From an uncultured Clostridia bacterium (lineage in GTDB: Bacteria > Bacillota > Clostridia > Peptostreptococcales > Anaerovoracaceae), in assembly GCA_945876935.1 (NCBI GenBank), contig CAMCQA010000002.1, positions 1-64,000 on the forward strand: a stretch of 64,000 bases of DNA, read 5' to 3'. The translations under genes were made by a program, and so were the position numbers. The notes under the pieces are model-generated. The model was not told where the DNA came from. It worked only from the letters and a program-made list of their open reading frames with translations, and did no database searches. Shown piece after piece: positions 1 to 15,848 of this stretch (the first letter of the stretch is position 1; every line of letters starts with the position of its first letter).

Positions 1-573
1 GTTTTAAGGCAAGATAATGCAGATATTAGATTGACAGAAAAATCATATAATATAGGACTTGCAACTGAAGAGAGATTTAATCAGTTTAAAAAGAAGCAAG
101 AAAATGTTCAACTAGAGATTGAAAGATTAAAAAATATAGAAGTTTATCCTAAAGATATAGAAGAGAAGCTTCTTGCACTTGGAACAACGCCACTAAAGAA
201 CAAAATAACTTTATTCGAGCTTCTAAAGAGACCAGAAGTGACATATGATACATTAAAGGATTTTGATAAAGAAAGGCCTAATTTATCTAATCATGAAATA
301 ATGCAACTTGAAGTGCAGATAAAGTACGAGGGTTATATAGGAAAACAGTTAGCCCAGATTGATAGGTTTAAAAAGTTAGAAAATAAGCCACTTTCAGAAG
401 ATTTGGATTATGATAAAATAGATAGTTTAAGACTTGAAGCCAGACAAAAACTTAAAGAAATAAGACCTTTATCTATAGGGCAGGCATCAAGAATTTCTGG
501 AGTTTCTCCAGCAGATATAAATGTATTAATGATATATTTAGAGAAAGAGCGAAGAATAGGTCAAAGCAAGTAA
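1..573 (+). CDS. mnmG: tRNA uridine-5-carboxymethylaminomethyl synthesis enzyme MnmG (GidA), C-terminal part, truncated by window start
   Basis: Open frame from base 1; C-terminal motif RPLSIGQASRISGVSPADINVLMIYLE typical of MnmG; followed by rsmG. Confidence 0.93.
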   Translation, partial: VLRQDNADIRLTEKSYNIGLATEERFNQFKKKQENVQLEIERLKNIEVYPKDIEEKLLALGTTPLKNKITLFELLKRPEVTYDTLKDFDKERPNLSNHEIMQLEVQIKYEGYIGKQLAQIDRFKKLENKPLSEDLDYDKIDSLRLEARQKLKEIRPLSIGQASRISGVSPADINVLMIYLEKERRIGQSK

Positions 574-7087: not shown

Positions 7088-8407
7088 TTATATCTCAATC
7101 ATGTGGAAGACTTTCTTTCCTTTTTGCACAAGAAGTTTTCCGTCTGTGAACATATCAGAAGTAATGAGCATCTTTTTATCTGTCACTTTATTTTCAGCTA
7201 TTTTTAGCCCTCCTTGCTCTATTAGTCTGAAGCCTTCAGAATTAGATTTTATAAGATCTACTTTCTTTAGCATGTCTATTACACCAAGACCTTCTTCGAA
7301 AAGAGAACTATCCAGCTTGCTGTGAGGAATATTATCCATATTACCATTACCAGAGAAAGCAGCTCTTGAGCCATCTAGCGCTTTTTTCGCCTCATCTTCT
7401 CCATGGACTAGGCATGTTAGTTCGTATGCTAATATTTCTTTAGCTTTATTTATTTCGCTGCCTTCTACATTTACTAGCTTTGATATTTCATCTAAAGGTA
7501 GGAATGTTAGCATTTTTAGACATTTCTCTACGTCAGCATCAGCAACATTTCTCCAGTACTGGAAAAAGTCAAATGGAGATGTCTTTTTAGGATCAAGCCA
7601 TAGAGCTCCTGCCTGAGTTTTACCCATTTTTTTACCATCGCTTGTTGTGAGAAGAGCAAATGTCATAGCATAAACCTGCTTATTTAATTCTCTTCTACAC
7701 AAGTCTACTCCACCTAAAAGGTTTGACCACTGGTCGTTACCACCAAACTGCATTTTAACATCAAGATCTCTAGCAAGAACCATAAAATCATAAGATTGCA
7801 TAAGCATGTAATTGATTTCTAGGAATGTTAATCCCTGCTCTAGTCTCTGTTTGTATGCTTCTGCTCTAAGCATTGTATTTACAGAGAAATGTTTACCAAT
7901 ATCTCTGATGAACTGAATATAGTTTACATCTAAAAGCCAAGTTCCATTATTTACGGCTATAGCTCTGCCTTCTGCAGGCTCTTTATTGGCTTCATTTTTT
8001 ACACCGTAATTAGCTCCTGTAAAAACGAAGTCATTATCAAAATCGATAAATCTATCGAAGAGTTTTGTAAAAGCGTTACAGTTATTTTTTACTGTTTCAA
8101 GATCCATAAACTGACGCATATCAGTTCTTCCTGAAGGGTCTCCTACCATTCCTGTGCCGCCACCTACTAACACTACTGGTGTATGACCGTATTTTTGCAT
8201 GTACATCATAATTATAATCTGCATGAAGTGGCCTATGTGAAGACTGTCTGCAGTAGGGTCAAATCCTATGTAGAATTTAATTTTTTCTTTTCCTAGAAGA
8301 TCTCTTATTTCATCTTCGTGTGTTGTTTGCTCTATGAACCCTCTCTCTTTGAGGATATCAAATACGTTTGTTTTATCGCTTACATTATCTGGTATAATTC
8401 TCTTCAT
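7088..8407 (-). CDS. tyrS: Tyrosyl-tRNA synthetase
   Basis: FYIGFDPTADSLHIGH (HIGH motif), KMGKT (KMSKS-like); RBS before ATG at 8407. Confidence 0.95.
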   Translation of the reverse strand: MKRIIPDNVSDKTNVFDILKERGFIEQTTHEDEIRDLLGKEKIKFYIGFDPTADSLHIGHFMQIIIMMYMQKYGHTPVVLVGGGTGMVGDPSGRTDMRQFMDLETVKNNCNAFTKLFDRFIDFDNDFVFTGANYGVKNEANKEPAEGRAIAVNNGTWLLDVNYIQFIRDIGKHFSVNTMLRAEAYKQRLEQGLTFLEINYMLMQSYDFMVLARDLDVKMQFGGNDQWSNLLGGVDLCRRELNKQVYAMTFALLTTSDGKKMGKTQAGALWLDPKKTSPFDFFQYWRNVADADVEKCLKMLTFLPLDEISKLVNVEGSEINKAKEILAYELTCLVHGEDEAKKALDGSRAAFSGNGNMDNIPHSKLDSSLFEEGLGVIDMLKKVDLIKSNSEGFRLIEQGGLKIAENKVTDKKMLITSDMFTDGKLLVQKGKKVFHMIEI

Positions 8408-8430
8408 TTTATATTCCTTTCCTTTTCGCA

Positions 8431-8811
8431 TTAGAGCGTTGCTATCGCTTCTATTTCCACTAAGCCGTTTTTAGGAAGCTTGGAAACCTCCAAAGCAGAT
8501 CTTGCTGGGAAGCTTCCTTCTCCTAAAAACTGAGTATAAACTTCATTTACAGCCGCAAAATCATCAATGTTTTTTAAGAAACAAGTAGTTTTCACAAGTT
8601 TACTAAGATCACTTCCTGCTTCTTTTAAGATAGCTTCGATGTTTTTGAAAGCCTGCACAGCTTGTTCTACAACATCATCAGAAACAAAGTTGCCTGTTTC
8701 TGGATCAAGTCCTAGTTGACCTGAAGTAAATATCATATCTCCAACGATTATCCCTTGTGAATATGGACCAATTGCTGCAGGAGCATTTTTAGTTGCGATT
8801 ATTTTTTTCAT
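8431..8811 (-). CDS. ridA: RidA family reactive intermediate/imine deaminase
   Basis: IGPYSQGIIVGDMIFTSGQLGLDPETG; C-terminal VEIEAIA. Confidence 0.93.
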   Translation of the reverse strand: MKKIIATKNAPAAIGPYSQGIIVGDMIFTSGQLGLDPETGNFVSDDVVEQAVQAFKNIEAILKEAGSDLSKLVKTTCFLKNIDDFAAVNEVYTQFLGEGSFPARSALEVSKLPKNGLVEIEAIATL

Positions 8812-10081
8812 AATAACTACCTATCCTTTCAATTATTTCTTTTACAGTTTCTTTAGAATCATTATTGTTTAATATTTTGATATCTGCTAGCTTTTCGTAG
8901 CTAGGGTATCGTTTATTGTAGATGGCTTTCCACTCTTCATAAGTATGGTAGAGTGGCCTTTTCTCATATTTGAATATTTCATTAAAGGTTAGCTCATTTA
9001 CATCTCTATCTAAGTATATTACAAGGCTTTTAGCTCTTATATTATCTATATTATTAGATCTTGTTAAAGCACCTCCGCCTGTTGCTATTACTTGGCCAGT
9101 TTCTTTAGCAACTTGTTTGATAACATCTTCCTCCAAGTCTCTAAAATAGCTTTCACCATGAGACTTTATTAGCTCATCTATGGACAGCTTTGTCCTTTCT
9201 GTAATTATATCATCTATATCTACAAAAGGCCTATTCATAGCTGTAGCAAGCTCTTTTCCTATATGACTTTTTCCAGCACCACCCATTCCAACTAATGTAA
9301 TGTTTTGCGTAATACCATGTAAACTTGAAATTAGTTGATTGTTATAGCTTAAAAGGTTGACTCCTATAAAGAATTCAGCACTTTTAGTAGCTTGAGCGAC
9401 AAGCATTGGAAGCCCGTTAACAGCCTTTATGCCAATATCCTCCGCCATCATCATAAGTTTTGTTTTAGATGGATTATAAATTATATCTATAATTAATTCG
9501 CACTTTTTAAAGCTCTTGATATCTTTTATAGGACTGTTGTCTATATCAGGATAAGTGCCTACTGGAGTGGTGTTTATAATAATTTCAGCATCCTTAGGCA
9601 AATTATTATAGTTGATATATTGTATATCGCTTTTTTTATTTTCAATTGAAGATAAATTTGACCTTGTTGCTATGGATATTTTTCGTGGTTCAAGAAGCTT
9701 TAAAAGACTTGAAATAGTCTTAGCAGAGCCACCATTTCCAAGTATTAAGATACTTTTACCTCGAACATCTATTTTGTTATATGATAGAAGGTACATGAAG
9801 CCGAAGAAATCAGTGTTTGTTCCCAGAAGCCTTCCATCTTTTCTATATACTGTATTGCAGGCTCCCAGATTTCTCGATATATCATCACATTCTACATAAT
9901 TCATAATCTTTTCTTTAAAAGGTATAGTGACATTTAAGCCGGAAAAGTTACCTTCTTCTATAAAGCTTTCTAGCTGATCTTCATTTAAATCTATTAAATT
10001 GTAATCATAGTACCCAAGAGATTTGTGTATTATTGCTGAGTAGCTATGAGAAATATTTTTTCCAATAAGAGCAAAGCTCAT
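8789..10081 (-). CDS. Bifunctional shikimate dehydrogenase (N-term) / shikimate kinase (C-term) fusion
   Basis: N-term GKNISHSYSAIIHKSLG, GLNVTIPFKE, NTDFFGF (AroE); C-term GMGGAGKSHIGKELA, FVDIDDIIT, FRDLEEDV, ATGGGAL (AroK). Confidence 0.92.
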   Translation of the reverse strand: MSFALIGKNISHSYSAIIHKSLGYYDYNLIDLNEDQLESFIEEGNFSGLNVTIPFKEKIMNYVECDDISRNLGACNTVYRKDGRLLGTNTDFFGFMYLLSYNKIDVRGKSILILGNGGSAKTISSLLKLLEPRKISIATRSNLSSIENKKSDIQYINYNNLPKDAEIIINTTPVGTYPDIDNSPIKDIKSFKKCELIIDIIYNPSKTKLMMMAEDIGIKAVNGLPMLVAQATKSAEFFIGVNLLSYNNQLISSLHGITQNITLVGMGGAGKSHIGKELATAMNRPFVDIDDIITERTKLSIDELIKSHGESYFRDLEEDVIKQVAKETGQVIATGGGALTRSNNIDNIRAKSLVIYLDRDVNELTFNEIFKYEKRPLYHTYEEWKAIYNKRYPSYEKLADIKILNNNDSKETVKEIIERIGSYYEKNNRN

Positions 10082-10104
10082 TTTATCACCACCTTTCAAA
10101 ATTT

Positions 10105-11442
10105 TTATAATTGCTTTTGTTTATCTTTGCTCAGAGTAATAATCTCTTTAAAGATATTTTGCATGTCTTTGGGAATATTTGATAATATTTCCATTTCACG
10201 ATTTTGATCTAAGATTTCTAGAGAATGTTCTTTTTTATAAGAACCTATTTCTTTAGATAGATTAAGCCTTTCTTCTAGGAGAGAAATTATTTCTTTATCT
10301 ATTTTATCGATCTCAAGTCTATTTTTCTCTAGAATGTTCTTGTCGTTATCGGAAGATAGAATTTTATTGTCGGCATAATCTAAAATTTTATCCAATATAG
10401 CTATGGCTAGAGCTGATGTTACCACAGGAGATACCCTTGTAACGAAAGCGATATCGTGTCGTCCCGCAGTTTTTGTCACAGCTATTCTACCTTCTTTTAT
10501 ATCTATAGTTTGTTGTTCCTTTTTTATGGAAGAAGTCGGTTTAAAGTGAGTTGTCAATACTATTGGCATTGAATTTGTAAGTCCACCTTGCAGACCTCCA
10601 CAATTATTTGTATAAGTTTTTATAATACCTGTATTTTCTTCATAACTAGCATAGATATCATTATTTTCACTGCCTGATATTTTTGAAGCTTTGATACCAT
10701 TTCCAAACTCTAAAGCCTTTGCTCCAGGTATGGAAAAAATAAGTTTTGCTATGGTGCTATTTATGCGGTTAAATATAGGTCCGCCTAGACCGATGGGTAA
10801 TCCTGTAGCGTAAGTTAAAATGCTACCACCAATGGAATCTTTACTATTAATAATTTCATTAAGATAATTGTTTGCATCTATTAAATTAATTTCTGATGAA
10901 TTTTCAGGATGCATATAATCAATACCTTTACTCTCTATAGATCCAAGGCTAATTAACTTGGAGTCTATTTTAAATTTTGGATAGAAATGCTCAATGATTT
11001 GTATTGATATAGCTCCAGCAATGACTAACATTATAGTCATCCTCCCTGAAAATGGACCTCCACCATTTAAATTTAATGTATTTTTATATTTATGGATAGC
11101 TGGTAGATCGCAGTGACCAGGCCTAGGTAGATGTAAATCGTAATCAGAAGATTTTACATTTTCATTTAATACTTTAAATTTAAGAGTTTTTTTGCTTGGA
11201 AATATACTTTTATACTCATATTCTCCAATCTCTTCAGAATATAAAAGAGGGATATCTTTTTCTATCCTTGTTGTAGAAAGAGGATTGATAGAACTAGCCT
11301 TTCTTTTTCCTAATAGCTTTTCTATTTTTTGCATATCTATAGATATGCCTTCTGGTAAGCCAGAAATTTCTAAATATATAGCTTCTTCATGGCTGCCACC
11401 TGATATTTTAATTTTTAAATTTTCAATAAAACTAGATTCCAT
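10105..11442 (-). CDS. Chorismate synthase fused to C-terminal AroQ-type chorismate mutase
   Basis: RPGHCD, GGPFSGRMT, AGRHDIAFVTRVSPV (AroC); C-term NRLEIDKIDKEIISLLEERLNLSKEIGSYKKE (AroQ); RBS AGGTGGG before ATG at 11442. Confidence 0.9.
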   Translation of the reverse strand: MESSFIENLKIKISGGSHEEAIYLEISGLPEGISIDMQKIEKLLGKRKASSINPLSTTRIEKDIPLLYSEEIGEYEYKSIFPSKKTLKFKVLNENVKSSDYDLHLPRPGHCDLPAIHKYKNTLNLNGGGPFSGRMTIMLVIAGAISIQIIEHFYPKFKIDSKLISLGSIESKGIDYMHPENSSEINLIDANNYLNEIINSKDSIGGSILTYATGLPIGLGGPIFNRINSTIAKLIFSIPGAKALEFGNGIKASKISGSENNDIYASYEENTGIIKTYTNNCGGLQGGLTNSMPIVLTTHFKPTSSIKKEQQTIDIKEGRIAVTKTAGRHDIAFVTRVSPVVTSALAIAILDKILDYADNKILSSDNDKNILEKNRLEIDKIDKEIISLLEERLNLSKEIGSYKKEHSLEILDQNREMEILSNIPKDMQNIFKEIITLSKDKQKQL

Positions 11443-12856
11443 TAATCTGCCCACCTAATTTGATAAAGTCATCCCAAAACCTAGGATAAGACTTTGATGT
11501 TACAAGAGCATTATCTATTGTGTATTTTGTATTTTCTTCAAGACCGGTTGATAAAATAGCCAAAATCATAGCTATTCTATGATCATTGAAGGAAGAAAAA
11601 CTATTGTCGTTTAACTTAACCTCTTTTGGAGTACTAACCTCCAAAGAAATGCTCTTTGTAGATTCTATAACTTTAACTATGCCGCCGAGAGCCTGAACTA
11701 TAGATTTACTTGCCTCAAGCCTGTTGCTTTCTTTTTTTCTTAGACGCCCTAAATTTTCAAATTTAAACTTCTTACTCTTTATAAAACAGGAGCTTATTAT
11801 TAAAATAGGAGCGATATCGGGTATATTTTTACAATCTATGGATAGAGTTTCCTTACTTTCTTTCATTTTTCTTAGAATGGCAGGTAATACTTTATCACCC
11901 TGCTCATCATTAAAGTCCAAGTTAGTAACTTTTATAGGCTCATCTAAGAGGTTTTCAGACCCCATTATAAAGTTTGCACATATCCAAAAGGATGCTAAGG
12001 ACCAGTCACCTGCAACAAAAGTGTCTATAAGGTCCTCTGTTATTTGAGGATATGATATATTGTTGCTTTTGTTTATGTATATATTCCATATAGAGTGATT
12101 ATCAGATTGAGAAGAATCTTCAATAACATTTATGCCAAATTTTTTGACTGAATCTACAGTAATATCTATGTATTGTTTGGACTCCTGATTTTTTAGTAAT
12201 ACTTCTATTTCAAAAGTTGATATAAGGCTGCACATAAGAATCCCGGACACGACCTGAGAACTTGTGAGATTTTCTCCATAAAACTGTAATTTTACTTGTG
12301 GATAACTTTGTTTATAATTGCTATTTCTAGTTATATTAATATAGTACTTTAATTGTCCTTCGACAGTATTAGACTCCTTTATGATGATAAGTCCTCTACA
12401 GTCTAGGATTGGTTTAAGGATGAGAAAATCATCTATACTTACTCTTTCGTATAAAGCTTTATCAACTTCAAGCTTGCATGATATATTTAGGAAGCATGCT
12501 ATAGGAACTATCATCCTAAGAGTTGAAGCACTTTCATCGCAATTGAGCGATAAATATGATAAATCAACATGTTTACCTGATATATCCTTTAAAACTAAGT
12601 CCGAATTATATTTGATAACGTGATTATCTATCAGAGCCTTTGTAAGCTTCTCCATAATTATAAATGTTGCTATATTATCACGATTTGACTCTTTGAGAAT
12701 AAAGTTTCTCAAAACTTCTAGCTCACTTGGAAAGCTTTCTTTTTTTGAAGCAAGTGAAGATAAAAAGAAACAAATAATAAGCCTGTGCATATATGATTTG
12801 CTATATATTTTATCCACAATACCTGCGAGAGGCTTGGAATATATCATTTTTTGCAT
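11432..12856 (-). CDS. aroA: 3-phosphoshikimate 1-carboxyvinyltransferase (EPSP synthase), divergent
   Basis: SKSYMHRLI, ESASTLRMIVP, LRKKESNRLEA, NDHRIAM motifs. Confidence 0.9.
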   Translation of the reverse strand: MQKMIYSKPLAGIVDKIYSKSYMHRLIICFFLSSLASKKESFPSELEVLRNFILKESNRDNIATFIIMEKLTKALIDNHVIKYNSDLVLKDISGKHVDLSYLSLNCDESASTLRMIVPIACFLNISCKLEVDKALYERVSIDDFLILKPILDCRGLIIIKESNTVEGQLKYYINITRNSNYKQSYPQVKLQFYGENLTSSQVVSGILMCSLISTFEIEVLLKNQESKQYIDITVDSVKKFGINVIEDSSQSDNHSIWNIYINKSNNISYPQITEDLIDTFVAGDWSLASFWICANFIMGSENLLDEPIKVTNLDFNDEQGDKVLPAILRKMKESKETLSIDCKNIPDIAPILIISSCFIKSKKFKFENLGRLRKKESNRLEASKSIVQALGGIVKVIESTKSISLEVSTPKEVKLNDNSFSSFNDHRIAMILAILSTGLEENTKYTIDNALVTSKSYPRFWDDFIKLGGQINGI

Positions 12857-12875: not shown

Positions 12876-13982
12876 TTATTTTAAGTTATCTTTTAATATA
12901 CTTGCTATTTCATTGATGTTTATTTTTTCAATTATTAAGCCTTCTACTTTATGTGGCAGAACCATTGATATGGTATTTCCGTTTGCTTTTTTATCCTTTT
13001 GAAGAATTATAGCAATATCATCAATATTAAAATCGATATCGTCCAATGGCACTATTTTTTTCACAGCATTTTTTACATCTGATAGATGGACTTGATCTAA
13101 GTAGCCTTTATTTTTTGAAATAATAGATGCAAGATATATTCCATAAGCTACAGCTATACCATGAGGGATTGTAAAATCTTTATTAGTTTCTATAGCATGG
13201 CCTAGACTGTGACCTAGATTTAAAAATCTTCGCTCCCCTTTATCGAGGGGATCACCACTTACTAATTTAATTTTTATTTTTAAGCAAGACTCTATGAGTG
13301 TAGCTAGGTTTTTCTCACAATCAGTAGAAGGAAAGCTAAGATTGCAGGAAGAGAAAATCTTTAACTTGCTAATAACCTTATATTTCAATATTTCTCCATA
13401 AGCTGATGAAAGCTCTATTTCTGGCAATGTCTTTAAAAAAGTTGTATTTATTATAACAGCTTTAGGTTGATAAAATGTGCCTATAAGATTCTTGGAACAA
13501 TCTAAATTGATTGCATTTTTTCCGCCAACTGAGCTGTCAATCATAGATAAAAGAGATGTTGGCATTTGTATTAAGGAAAGTCCTCTCATATATAAGCTAG
13601 CTGCAAGACCGCAGATATCTCCTATACTGCCACCACCAAAGACTATGATAATGTCATTTCTTGAAAAAGCATTTTCGCTCAGAGCTTCAAGTATCTGCTG
13701 AAGACAAGAAAAAGATTTGGCATTTTCGCCTGCAGGTAAAACAACTTTGGATACGAAAAATCCTGTGTTTGCAAGCTCATCATCTATTGGAAATATAGGG
13801 TTTTCATCTAAAAGATTCATATATATATTGTCCAGATGGAAATCTGTTACTATACAGATTTTTTCAGCTTGCAGATAATCGGCTTCTTGATTTACTATAT
13901 CTATAACATCATCTAAATTCATAGCATCTATATGGATAGGATAACTATTTAGCTGTACACTTCCGTTGAAATTAAGTTGCAT
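12876..13982 (-). CDS. aroB: 3-dehydroquinate synthase
   Basis: FGGGSIGDICGLAASLYMRGL, QMPTSLLSMIDSSVGGK, NLGHSLGHAIE. Confidence 0.95.
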   Translation of the reverse strand: MQLNFNGSVQLNSYPIHIDAMNLDDVIDIVNQEADYLQAEKICIVTDFHLDNIYMNLLDENPIFPIDDELANTGFFVSKVVLPAGENAKSFSCLQQILEALSENAFSRNDIIIVFGGGSIGDICGLAASLYMRGLSLIQMPTSLLSMIDSSVGGKNAINLDCSKNLIGTFYQPKAVIINTTFLKTLPEIELSSAYGEILKYKVISKLKIFSSCNLSFPSTDCEKNLATLIESCLKIKIKLVSGDPLDKGERRFLNLGHSLGHAIETNKDFTIPHGIAVAYGIYLASIISKNKGYLDQVHLSDVKNAVKKIVPLDDIDFNIDDIAIILQKDKKANGNTISMVLPHKVEGLIIEKININEIASILKDNLK

Positions 13983-13996
13983 ACTATACCCTCTAT

Positions 13997-14995
13997 TTAT
14001 AAATGCTCTTTCAGATTAGATATCTTCTTAGAAAGAGCTGCAAACTCGTCTGGAACTAAAGCCTGCGGTCCATCACAAAGAGCTGTGTGAGGTGCACTGT
14101 GAACTTCTATCATAAGTCCGTCAGCTCCAGCTGCTACCGCCGCCATTGCCATTGGTATAACCAGGTTATTTTTTCCTGTTCCATGACTAGGATCTACTAT
14201 TACAGGTAGGTGAGACTTAGATTTTATAACAGGTATAGCACTGATATCCAAAGTGTTTTTTGTTGATGTTTCAAAGGTTTTAATACCTCTTTCACATAAA
14301 ATTATATTTTCATTCCCACCATTTAATATATATTCAGCTGACATAAGTAGCTCTTCTATCGTAGCTGCAGGACTTCTTTTTAGAAGAACAGGCTTTTTTG
14401 ATTTGCTGAGTTCTTTAAGAAGCTCAAAATTTTGCATATTTCTTGCTCCTACTTGAATCAAATCAACCTCTTCAAATAAATCTATTTGAGATACTTCCGT
14501 TATCTCTGATACTATTGGCATACCAACTTTCTTCTTTGCAGCAATTAAAAGCTCTAGTCCCTTTTCTCTCATGCCTTGAAAAGAGTAGGGAGAAGTTCTA
14601 GGTTTAAATGCGCCTCCTCTAAGCATATGAGCTCCGTTAGATTTAACTGAAGAAGCAACATCCATCAATATTGACTCGTTTTCTATAGAGCAAGGACCGG
14701 CTATGATAGGAAGAGAACCATCTCCAAAAGATACACCATCTACCTTTACAACGCTAGGCTCTGGTTTAAATTTAATGCTTGCTTTTTTAAATGGATCTTG
14801 TATTCTTAGGGCTTTGTCAACAACAGGAAGAGACTTCATCATATCTAAGTCAATCTGTGAAGTATCACCAATGAGCCCCATCAAAGTAGTTGAGCTTCCT
14901 TGACTATAATGAACCTCTAAATTTAGGCTTCGAAGCCAGTCCCTAAGACTGTTTAGCTCTGCTGGATTTGGGTTTTCCTTTAAAACAATTATCAT
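13997..14995 (-). CDS. aroF: 3-deoxy-7-phosphoheptulonate synthase (type I-beta, N-terminal ferredoxin-like domain)
   Basis: IAGPCSIENE, LRGGAFKPRTSPYSFQGM, VDPSHGTGKNNLV; ATG 14995 has RBS AGAAAGG. Confidence 0.95.
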   Translation of the reverse strand: MIIVLKENPNPAELNSLRDWLRSLNLEVHYSQGSSTTLMGLIGDTSQIDLDMMKSLPVVDKALRIQDPFKKASIKFKPEPSVVKVDGVSFGDGSLPIIAGPCSIENESILMDVASSVKSNGAHMLRGGAFKPRTSPYSFQGMREKGLELLIAAKKKVGMPIVSEITEVSQIDLFEEVDLIQVGARNMQNFELLKELSKSKKPVLLKRSPAATIEELLMSAEYILNGGNENIILCERGIKTFETSTKNTLDISAIPVIKSKSHLPVIVDPSHGTGKNNLVIPMAMAAVAAGADGLMIEVHSAPHTALCDGPQALVPDEFAALSKKISNLKEHL

Positions 14996-15061
14996 GACTA
15001 TACCTTTCTGATATATTAAATCTTTTGACATAATTTATATGCCATTTTCACTTTGCTTATA

Positions 15062-15096
15062 AATTAAAAAACTCCACAGGGGATTTCACTGTGGAG
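15062..15096 (-). terminator. Leader terminator upstream of aroF (candidate attenuator)
   Basis: Minus strand CTCCACAGTGAAATCCCCTGTGGAG followed by TTTTTTAATTT, between the leader ORF and aroF. Confidence 0.85.
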
Positions 15097-15145
15097 ATAT
15101 AGTTCAAACTTATGAAGATACACCTTTCTTTAATAGCAAAAACCC

Positions 15146-15220
15146 CTACTTAACATTTAATTGTGAAGTAGAGTAATAGTAACCAAAAACGTTCCAAAGA
15201 TTTCTGCTTTCTAGTCTCAT
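15146..15220 (-). CDS. Putative aromatic leader peptide MRLESRNLWNVFGYYYSTSQLNVK (24 aa)
   Basis: ATG with upstream AGAGGAAGG; contains Trp, Phe and three consecutive Tyr codons; lies between a free intergenic 5' region and an intrinsic terminator ahead of the aro operon. Confidence 0.8.
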   Translation of the reverse strand: MRLESRNLWNVFGYYYSTSQLNVK

Positions 15221-15308
15221 GTGTGATACCTTCCTCTTTTTTCTGTAATATACTGAAAGTGTAGCATAAAGAATAAAAAAAGTAAATATATTTTATAAAT
15301 TGCGGCCT

Positions 15309-15848
15309 CTATCTCAGAGAGTCTACGCCTTTATTGGCTAGGGCATCTGCACGGTTGTTCATCTCTATAGCAGATATCATATCTACCATTGTAAAATGAT
15401 CGCCGTTCCACTCTTTAAATTTTTTTAATAGTTTTTCTTTATCGAGTTGAGAGCTGTTTAAATTTACATGGCCTTTTACTTTATAAAATGAAATAGTATG
15501 ATTATTTAAAAATCCTATAAGTGATTTCCATAAGTCTATATTTTCAACAGGCTTTTTAGATGAAGTCACCCAGCCATTCTTCTCCCACTTTGAGAGCCAT
15601 CCGTCTTGAAAAGCTTTTACCAGATAAGAACTATCTGAAAAAATATGAATTATCTGATTAGGTTTTTTTATTTGTTCAAGAGCTTTTATTACTGCTGTAA
15701 GCTCCATTTTGTTATTTGTTGTGTTAACTTCTGCACCATAAATTTCTTTTTCATGATTGCCATATACTAAAATCGCACCCCACCCACCAAGGTTTTCTTT
15801 GCTTTGGTTTCCAGAACATGCGCCGTCAGTATGAATTTCTAGTATCAT
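15309..15848 (-). CDS. rnhA: Ribonuclease HI family protein
   Basis: IHTDGACSGNQ, NNKMELTAVIKAL, IFSDSSYLV, NNRADALAN. Confidence 0.92.
   Translation of the reverse strand: MILEIHTDGACSGNQSKENLGGWGAILVYGNHEKEIYGAEVNTTNNKMELTAVIKALEQIKKPNQIIHIFSDSSYLVKAFQDGWLSKWEKNGWVTSSKKPVENIDLWKSLIGFLNNHTISFYKVKGHVNLNSSQLDKEKLLKKFKEWNGDHFTMVDMISAIEMNNRADALANKGVDSLR

Follow-up and report, generated by a model that had tools for sequence, protein, structure and literature searches.

The window, the whole 64,000-nt stretch of DNA analyzed here, carries on its minus strand an operon for aromatic amino acid biosynthesis that opens with aroF and closes with tyrS. NCBIfam models agree with the gene names given in the preliminary description of this DNA, aroF-aroB-aroA-aroC/CM-aroEK-ridA-tyrS, although the aroB and aroA matches fall below cut-off. 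The start of aroF, earlier placed at 15031, is probably the ATG at 14995, which matches that of orthologs. Read directly in the sequence, the order along the minus strand from rnhA to aroF is a promoter-like site, a Shine-Dalgarno (SD)-like sequence, a leader ORF, a terminator hairpin, and aroF itself. The genes and leader elements are as follows:

7088..8431, minus strand: tyrS, last gene of the run (TIGR00234), and last gene of the operon in the congeners G001 and G002 too
8431..8811, minus strand: ridA (TIGR00004)
8789..10099, minus strand: aroE-aroK fusion (shikimate dehydrogenase and shikimate kinase models)
10105..11454, minus strand: aroC, chorismate synthase, fused to chorismate mutase (TIGR00033 and TIGR01808)
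11432..12856, minus strand: aroA, EPSP synthase, divergent (TIGR01356, below cut-off)
12876..13982, minus strand: aroB, 3-dehydroquinate synthase (TIGR01357, just below cut-off)
13997..14995, minus strand: aroF, DAHP synthase (NF006421/TIGR01361; start by ortholog alignment, ORF open to 15031)
15066..15096, minus strand: intrinsic terminator, segments 3:4, CTCCACAG-tgaaatccc-CTGTGGAG-TTTTTT (sequence and folds; same stem sequence in both leader-bearing congeners)
15079..15090, minus strand: segment 3, AGUGAAAUCCCC, comprising the end of the terminator 5' arm, the loop, and the first base of the 3' arm; antiterminator partner of segment 2 (duplex -15.9 kcal/mol)
15135..15151, minus strand: segment 2, AAGUAGGGGUUUUUGCU, which overlaps the stop codon of the leader and has two alternative partners, segment 1 and segment 3 (folds and duplex comparison)
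15166..15173, minus strand: segment 1, CUCUACUU, forming the 5' side of the protector helix and following immediately on the Tyr codons (minimum-free-energy fold; in G001 and G002 the bases differ but still pair)
15173..15181, minus strand: Tyr codons TAC TAT TAC in a row, where the ribosome is proposed to stall (only aromatic run common to the three genus leaders; stall model)
15146..15220, minus strand: leader peptide ORF, MRLESRNLWNVFGYYYSTSQLNVK, 24 codons plus stop (sequence, comparison with other leaders, and a reading-frame control over 128 leaders)
15229..15237, minus strand: SD-like sequence of the leader, AGAGGAAGG (sequence)
15258..15286, minus strand: putative sigma-A promoter, TTTACT at 15286-15281, a 17-nt spacer, and an extended TGC with TACACT at 15263-15258 (consensus match only)
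15309-15848, minus strand: rnhA, upstream of the leader (NCBIfam)

The preliminary description had reported an SD-like site and a 25-codon ORF; the SD and an ORF with Trp, Phe, and three Tyr codons are there, the length being 24 codons plus the stop. The strong hairpin followed by TTTTTT that it placed before aroF is likewise read directly in the sequence, with the hairpin at 15096-15072 and the T-run at 15071-15066. A simple terminator scan missed this hairpin because the scan was limited to loops of 8 nt and the loop here is 9 nt. Across 1,500 dinucleotide shuffles of the 314-nt intergenic region, an aromatic leader ORF arose in 61 and an ORF together with a terminator in none. The leader ORF and the terminator before aroF are real and not a product of chance. 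As a single sequence the leader folds unexceptionally (z -1.3), and the weight of the case therefore rests on comparative evidence.

The leader folds into a protector helix (1:2), an antiterminator helix (2:3), and a terminator helix (3:4) that are mutually exclusive. When the whole RNA is free to fold, the strand that immediately follows the Tyr codons, CUCUACUU, is paired with AAGUAGGGG at the stop of the leader. Trimming the 5' part shifts the latter strand to AGUGAAAUCCCC in the terminator (GGGG-U-UUUUUGCU : AGUGAAA-U-CCCC), and with further trimming the fold contains the terminator. Both pairings had been proposed beforehand, and both are present: CTACTT:AAGTAG within a helix of eight pairs, CUCUACUU:AAGUAGGG(G), and the pairing with the terminator in a longer form than first stated. 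Taken alone, the window leader gave moderate duplex z-scores of -2.2 for 2:3 and -1.5 for 1:2.

For the stall model, a ribosome footprint was shifted codon by codon along the full leader and the equilibrium probability of the terminator was computed. Folded with and without a stalled ribosome, a check suggested in the preliminary description, the leader lost its terminator at the Tyr codons and kept it at Trp9, Phe12, and the stop. Terminator probability was 0.89 at Trp9 and 0.92 at Phe12, 0.08 at Gly13, then 0.28, 0.24, and 0.60 at Tyr14, Tyr15, and Tyr16, respectively, and 0.88 with the ribosome at the stop codon or 0.80 with no ribosome at all. In this model the stall-sensitive positions are the Tyr codons, which is the logic of classical attenuation.

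Within the genus, four genomes were compared, namely the window genome (G000) and three congeners, G001, G002, and G003. The leaders of G001 (MLTLSNAAKAYYYRATLLLNIR) and G002 (MFLTNLSVEKTFKYYYVALLLNK), each ending in a stop codon, keep the promoter position, the SD, the YYY run, the 1:2 and 2:3 pairings, the terminator stem, and the gene order ending in tyrS; their promoters, at the equivalent place, read TTTACA-17-TAGAAT and TTTACA-17-TAAAAT. No leader precedes aroF in G003, where aroF follows another, unrelated gene. Thus the architecture is kept in two of the three congeners, with YYY as the only invariant feature of the leader. In G001 and G002, segments 1 to 3 have changed bases relative to the window and have retained their pairing. 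Segment 2 of G002 clearly prefers the segment 3 of its own leader (-15.7 vs. -6.0 and -10.1 kcal/mol), while that of G001 pairs with segment 3 of all three genus leaders. In the stall model neither congener responded to a stall at equilibrium and the terminator was formed at every stall position, so the switches of G001 and G002 would have to act kinetically.

We assembled aroF upstream regions from relatives and from named GTDB contigs, 167 distinct loci in total, and scored as an aromatic leader any ORF that had an SD and a stretch of eight residues of which five or more were aromatic. Such an ORF preceded aroF at 122 of the 167 loci, compared with 1.7% of shuffles, and a terminator of -8 kcal/mol or stronger followed the leader in 116 of 128 cases, compared with 13 of 128 when shuffled; the surveyed sequences are related, and these counts express consistency, not independent events. 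The comparison of orthologous aroF leaders put forward in the preliminary description thus showed the ORF and its aromatic codons to be widespread, with helices that in G001 and G002 pair through changed bases. Over 128 leaders, 6.2 of eight residues were aromatic in frame, compared with 1.3 and 1.6 in the other frames. The Tyr codons were split between TAC (221) and TAT (201), which points to selection on the residue and not on the bases. Only eight leaders could be aligned, hence each leader's own duplex was compared with foreign duplexes instead of counting covariation in a fixed alignment. In 115 leaders, the mean duplex z was -2.75 for 2:3 and -2.08 for 1:2, and the own 2:3 partner was better than foreign ones (mean -19.0 vs. 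-13.2 kcal/mol), with a median percentile of 0.079 and 35% of cases within the top 5%. Mean 2:3 pairing across the same leaders was 0.64 when the ribosome was stalled on the aromatic cluster and dropped to 0.07 when it stood at the leader end. Counting the best-scoring aroF per genome, a leader was found in 22 of 40 genomes of the class, the 40 having been hand-picked from the match list. Near-identical leaders occur in Emergencia (L083) and at L173 of the window's family, a resemblance that suggests Anaerovoracaceae as this family.

Outside the Firmicutes, going by contig labels, aromatic leaders also precede aroF at loci carrying Treponema-type labels (L071 and L091) and Lentisphaerae-type labels (L033, L040, and L090; Victivallales and Oligosphaeraceae), all of them metagenome-assembled and open to misbinning or mislabeling. 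A second leader type in other families (L020, L022, L023, L026, L029, L030, L056, L065, L281, L284, and L292) encodes peptides with a common motif resembling W-G-Y-F-Y-F-S-A-G-(x)-F, in which the codons for SAG are often identical (AGCGCTGG); the motif may reflect a peptide signal, a site of ribosome pausing, or an element of the RNA. One aroF locus (L149) had a cobalamin riboswitch match at its far end (1-141, minus strand), unrelated to the leader.

All 122 leaders scoring at least five contained Tyr, 120 contained Phe, and 19 contained Trp. Within the genus, W occurs only in the leader of the window species and F is absent from G001, whose leader has neither. The four genus genomes, which are near complete, held no TrpE-type match and no credible prephenate dehydratase (PDT), the single G002 match (5e-4) covering a fragment. 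Prephenate dehydrogenase was not recognizable in them by either its N- or its C-terminal domain, apart from one weak PF02153 match in G001 (1.6e-5). The chorismate mutase fused to AroC (10105-11454) is accordingly present in genomes in which no known prephenate consumer was found, and an unrecognized Tyr-forming enzyme in the genus is possible. More broadly, the share of Tyr, Y/(Y+F), was 0.69 in leaders from genomes with more than one aroF (n = 16) and 0.47 in the others (n = 52; Mann-Whitney p = 1.3e-6, uncorrected for relatedness). Examples of Tyr-rich leaders from multi-aroF genomes are NYYYYYGKRSLS (G034) and RYYYYYYGKRSLS (G134). Presence of PDT against F in the leader, and of TrpE against W, gave weak trends, with few PDT-negative genomes in the set. 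The YYY run is the only aromatic feature shared in the genus, TrpE and PDT are missing there, and leaders in multi-aroF genomes are richer in Tyr; for these reasons Tyr is the likely signal of the window leader. The lack of a recognizable prephenate dehydrogenase in the genus counts the other way.

We also considered whether paralogous aroF genes next to pheA carry Phe-rich leaders. This idea was discarded, most of these genes having no leader and several lying directly behind another aro gene. The exception is G016, where one of two aroF genes has a Y-rich and the other an F-rich leader (L008 and L245), a pairing that recalls E. coli, in which the DAHP synthases are regulated separately.

No T-box was found with covariance model RF00230 anywhere in the 64,000-nt window, and thus none at aroF or tyrS, which extends to the whole window the earlier remark that none was noticed before tyrS. 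Against Rfam 15, neither the window leader nor the leaders of 20 relatives had a match at gathering score; sub-threshold matches to ceN102 and the trpB motif were judged to be chance or generic. Elsewhere in the window genome, T-box matches precede valS, a gene for an NSS-family transporter, and ileS, with only valS above the gathering score. The transporter match (L186, G000:C1:60245-60484; 81 bits, sub-threshold) has a specifier that, read by eye, resembles UGG (Trp). Genomes of the window's family have 0 to 12 T-boxes, compared with 7 to 26 in the sampled sister families of the order. With T-boxes and a leader-peptide attenuator in one genome, both systems would coexist.

From the computed ORF, terminator, exclusive helices, conservation, and partner matching, we infer stalling, termination, and Tyr as the sole signal. 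The sequence evidence makes it very probable that a ribosome-mediated (leader-peptide) transcription attenuator precedes the aro-tyrS operon, most likely sensing charged tRNA-Tyr. The attenuator features found are an SD with an ORF rich in codons for the pathway product, a terminator between the leader and the first gene, exclusive helices conserved despite sequence change, and a segment 2 that is freed by a Tyr stall and blocked at the stop, both in the window leader and in the mean of 115 leaders. With ample Tyr-tRNA, the ribosome would pass YYY to the stop codon and cover segment 2, the terminator 3:4 would form, and aroF to tyrS would be off. With scarce Tyr-tRNA, it would stall on YYY and mask segment 1, so that 2:3 pairs, the terminator is lost, and transcription continues through the entire aro-tyrS operon. 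In the absence of translation, 1:2 would form and the terminator would win. The attenuator and helices proposed in the preliminary description are in this respect supported, being conserved in congeners and far beyond.

The preliminary description had one leader sensing all three aromatic amino acids, such that stalls at Trp9, Phe12, or Tyr14-16 would each release the antiterminator. The window leader does carry W, F, and YYY, and leaders with both Y and F are usual across the aroF leader family. Moreover, in transcripts ending before the terminator 3' arm, 2:3 pairing in the window leader reached 0.48 at W9 and 0.60 at Tyr, the range for W9/F12 stalls being 0.48 to 0.52, and a Trp or Phe response is to that extent compatible with folding. 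However, only YYY is conserved in the genus, which lacks a Trp or Phe branch, and full-length folding retains the terminator at W9 and F12. The NSS transporter behind a weak T-box with a tentatively Trp-like specifier also argues against a threefold sensor, which we consider unlikely.

The other readings are less probable still. Nascent-peptide arrest of the TnaC kind, in which the peptide itself stalls the ribosome on a free amino acid or other small molecule, would accord with the common motif ..YFYFSAG..F.C of some leaders in other families, but the genus of the window shares only YYY while the remaining peptide varies, and the conserved FAA/NFAA stretches of many relatives coincide with helix-forming RNA; we regard it as highly improbable. 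A metabolite- or protein-binding RNA (a riboswitch, a TRAP site, or a T-box variant) with an incidental ORF is slightly less probable again. T-boxes do exist in this genome, yet no Rfam family reached threshold on the leaders of the window or its relatives, no long conserved structure lies upstream of the ORF, inspection by eye revealed no array of NAG triplets of the kind that TRAP binds, and conservation falls on codons and alternative helices; the riboswitch and T-box readings were rejected on these grounds. That the hairpin is the 3' terminator of rnhA and the ORF a coincidence has a negligible chance of being correct. The gene rnhA is indeed encoded upstream in the same direction, but it is separated from the hairpin by the ORF and a promoter-like site, an ORF with a terminator recurs before aroF in most other lineages, and the shuffles gave no such combination, so this reading too was rejected. 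Ribosome-mediated attenuation at Tyr codons thus remains the preferred reading.

Beyond the window, the survey favors, with reasonable probability, a widespread and probably old family of aroF leader-peptide attenuators across the class Clostridia, whose codon content would be tuned to the supply of the operon: both Tyr and Phe if a single aroF supplies the two, a high share of Tyr if the genome has a second aroF, and Tyr as the sole shared element in the genus of the window, which is without Phe and Trp branches. If so, leader peptides would stand beside T-boxes as a main sensor of tRNA charge for entry to clostridial aromatic biosynthesis. Confirmation would mean that many Clostridia of the gut and rumen control the committed aromatic step through a ribosome that reads Tyr and Phe codons, would provide a clue, readable in sequence, to the aromatic amino acid sensed by each operon, and would explain an operon in which tyrS is coregulated with the pathway. 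The mechanism is classical; its breadth in Clostridia and the codon tuning are unexpected. Neither Rfam 15 nor the open-access literature searched yielded a description of aroF in Clostridia being controlled by an aromatic leader-peptide attenuator. Leader-peptide attenuation is a known form of regulation, and its clostridial aroF version is seemingly unreported, an absence that is not proof.

Amino acid operons of Firmicutes are expected to be under T-box, TRAP, or repressor control, and the classical leader-peptide attenuators are those of the proteobacterial trp, his, phe, and leu operons. The leader described here resembles the latter in its short ORF for translation, which contains a series of regulatory codons, its 1:2/2:3/3:4 logic, and its terminator before the operon, but it differs in phylum, in its target (aroF-tyrS), and in its Tyr codons, and a sequence relation is not expected. 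Like a T-box (RF00230), it would link the level of charged tRNA to transcription termination; unlike a T-box, whose RNA binds uncharged tRNA, its sensor would be the ribosome. The trpB motif RF04312 (PMC11109978) matched weakly around the terminator (E 0.2-0.4; 23.6 bits vs. a 59-bit gathering score), mainly through generic terminator features. Ribosome-mediated attenuators have been described in Firmicutes for the His leader peptides of Bacillus hisZ/hisS* (PMC2965389) and for the his operons of the C. difficile group and Erysipelotrichales (PMC9413887), so the rarity in this phylum implied by the preliminary description does not hold, the arrangement also being common upstream of Clostridia aroF; these His leaders share the ribosome as mediator and differ in their His codons and operons. 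The nearest report is the uORFC-13-1 motif upstream of Acholeplasma aroF, a uORF with a terminator for which attenuation was proposed (PMC8632094). That motif likewise places one or more aromatic codons and a terminator before aroF. It has been described only for Acholeplasma and for environmental sequences and contains one Phe codon or more, where the leader in the window has a Tyr run and belongs to Clostridia.
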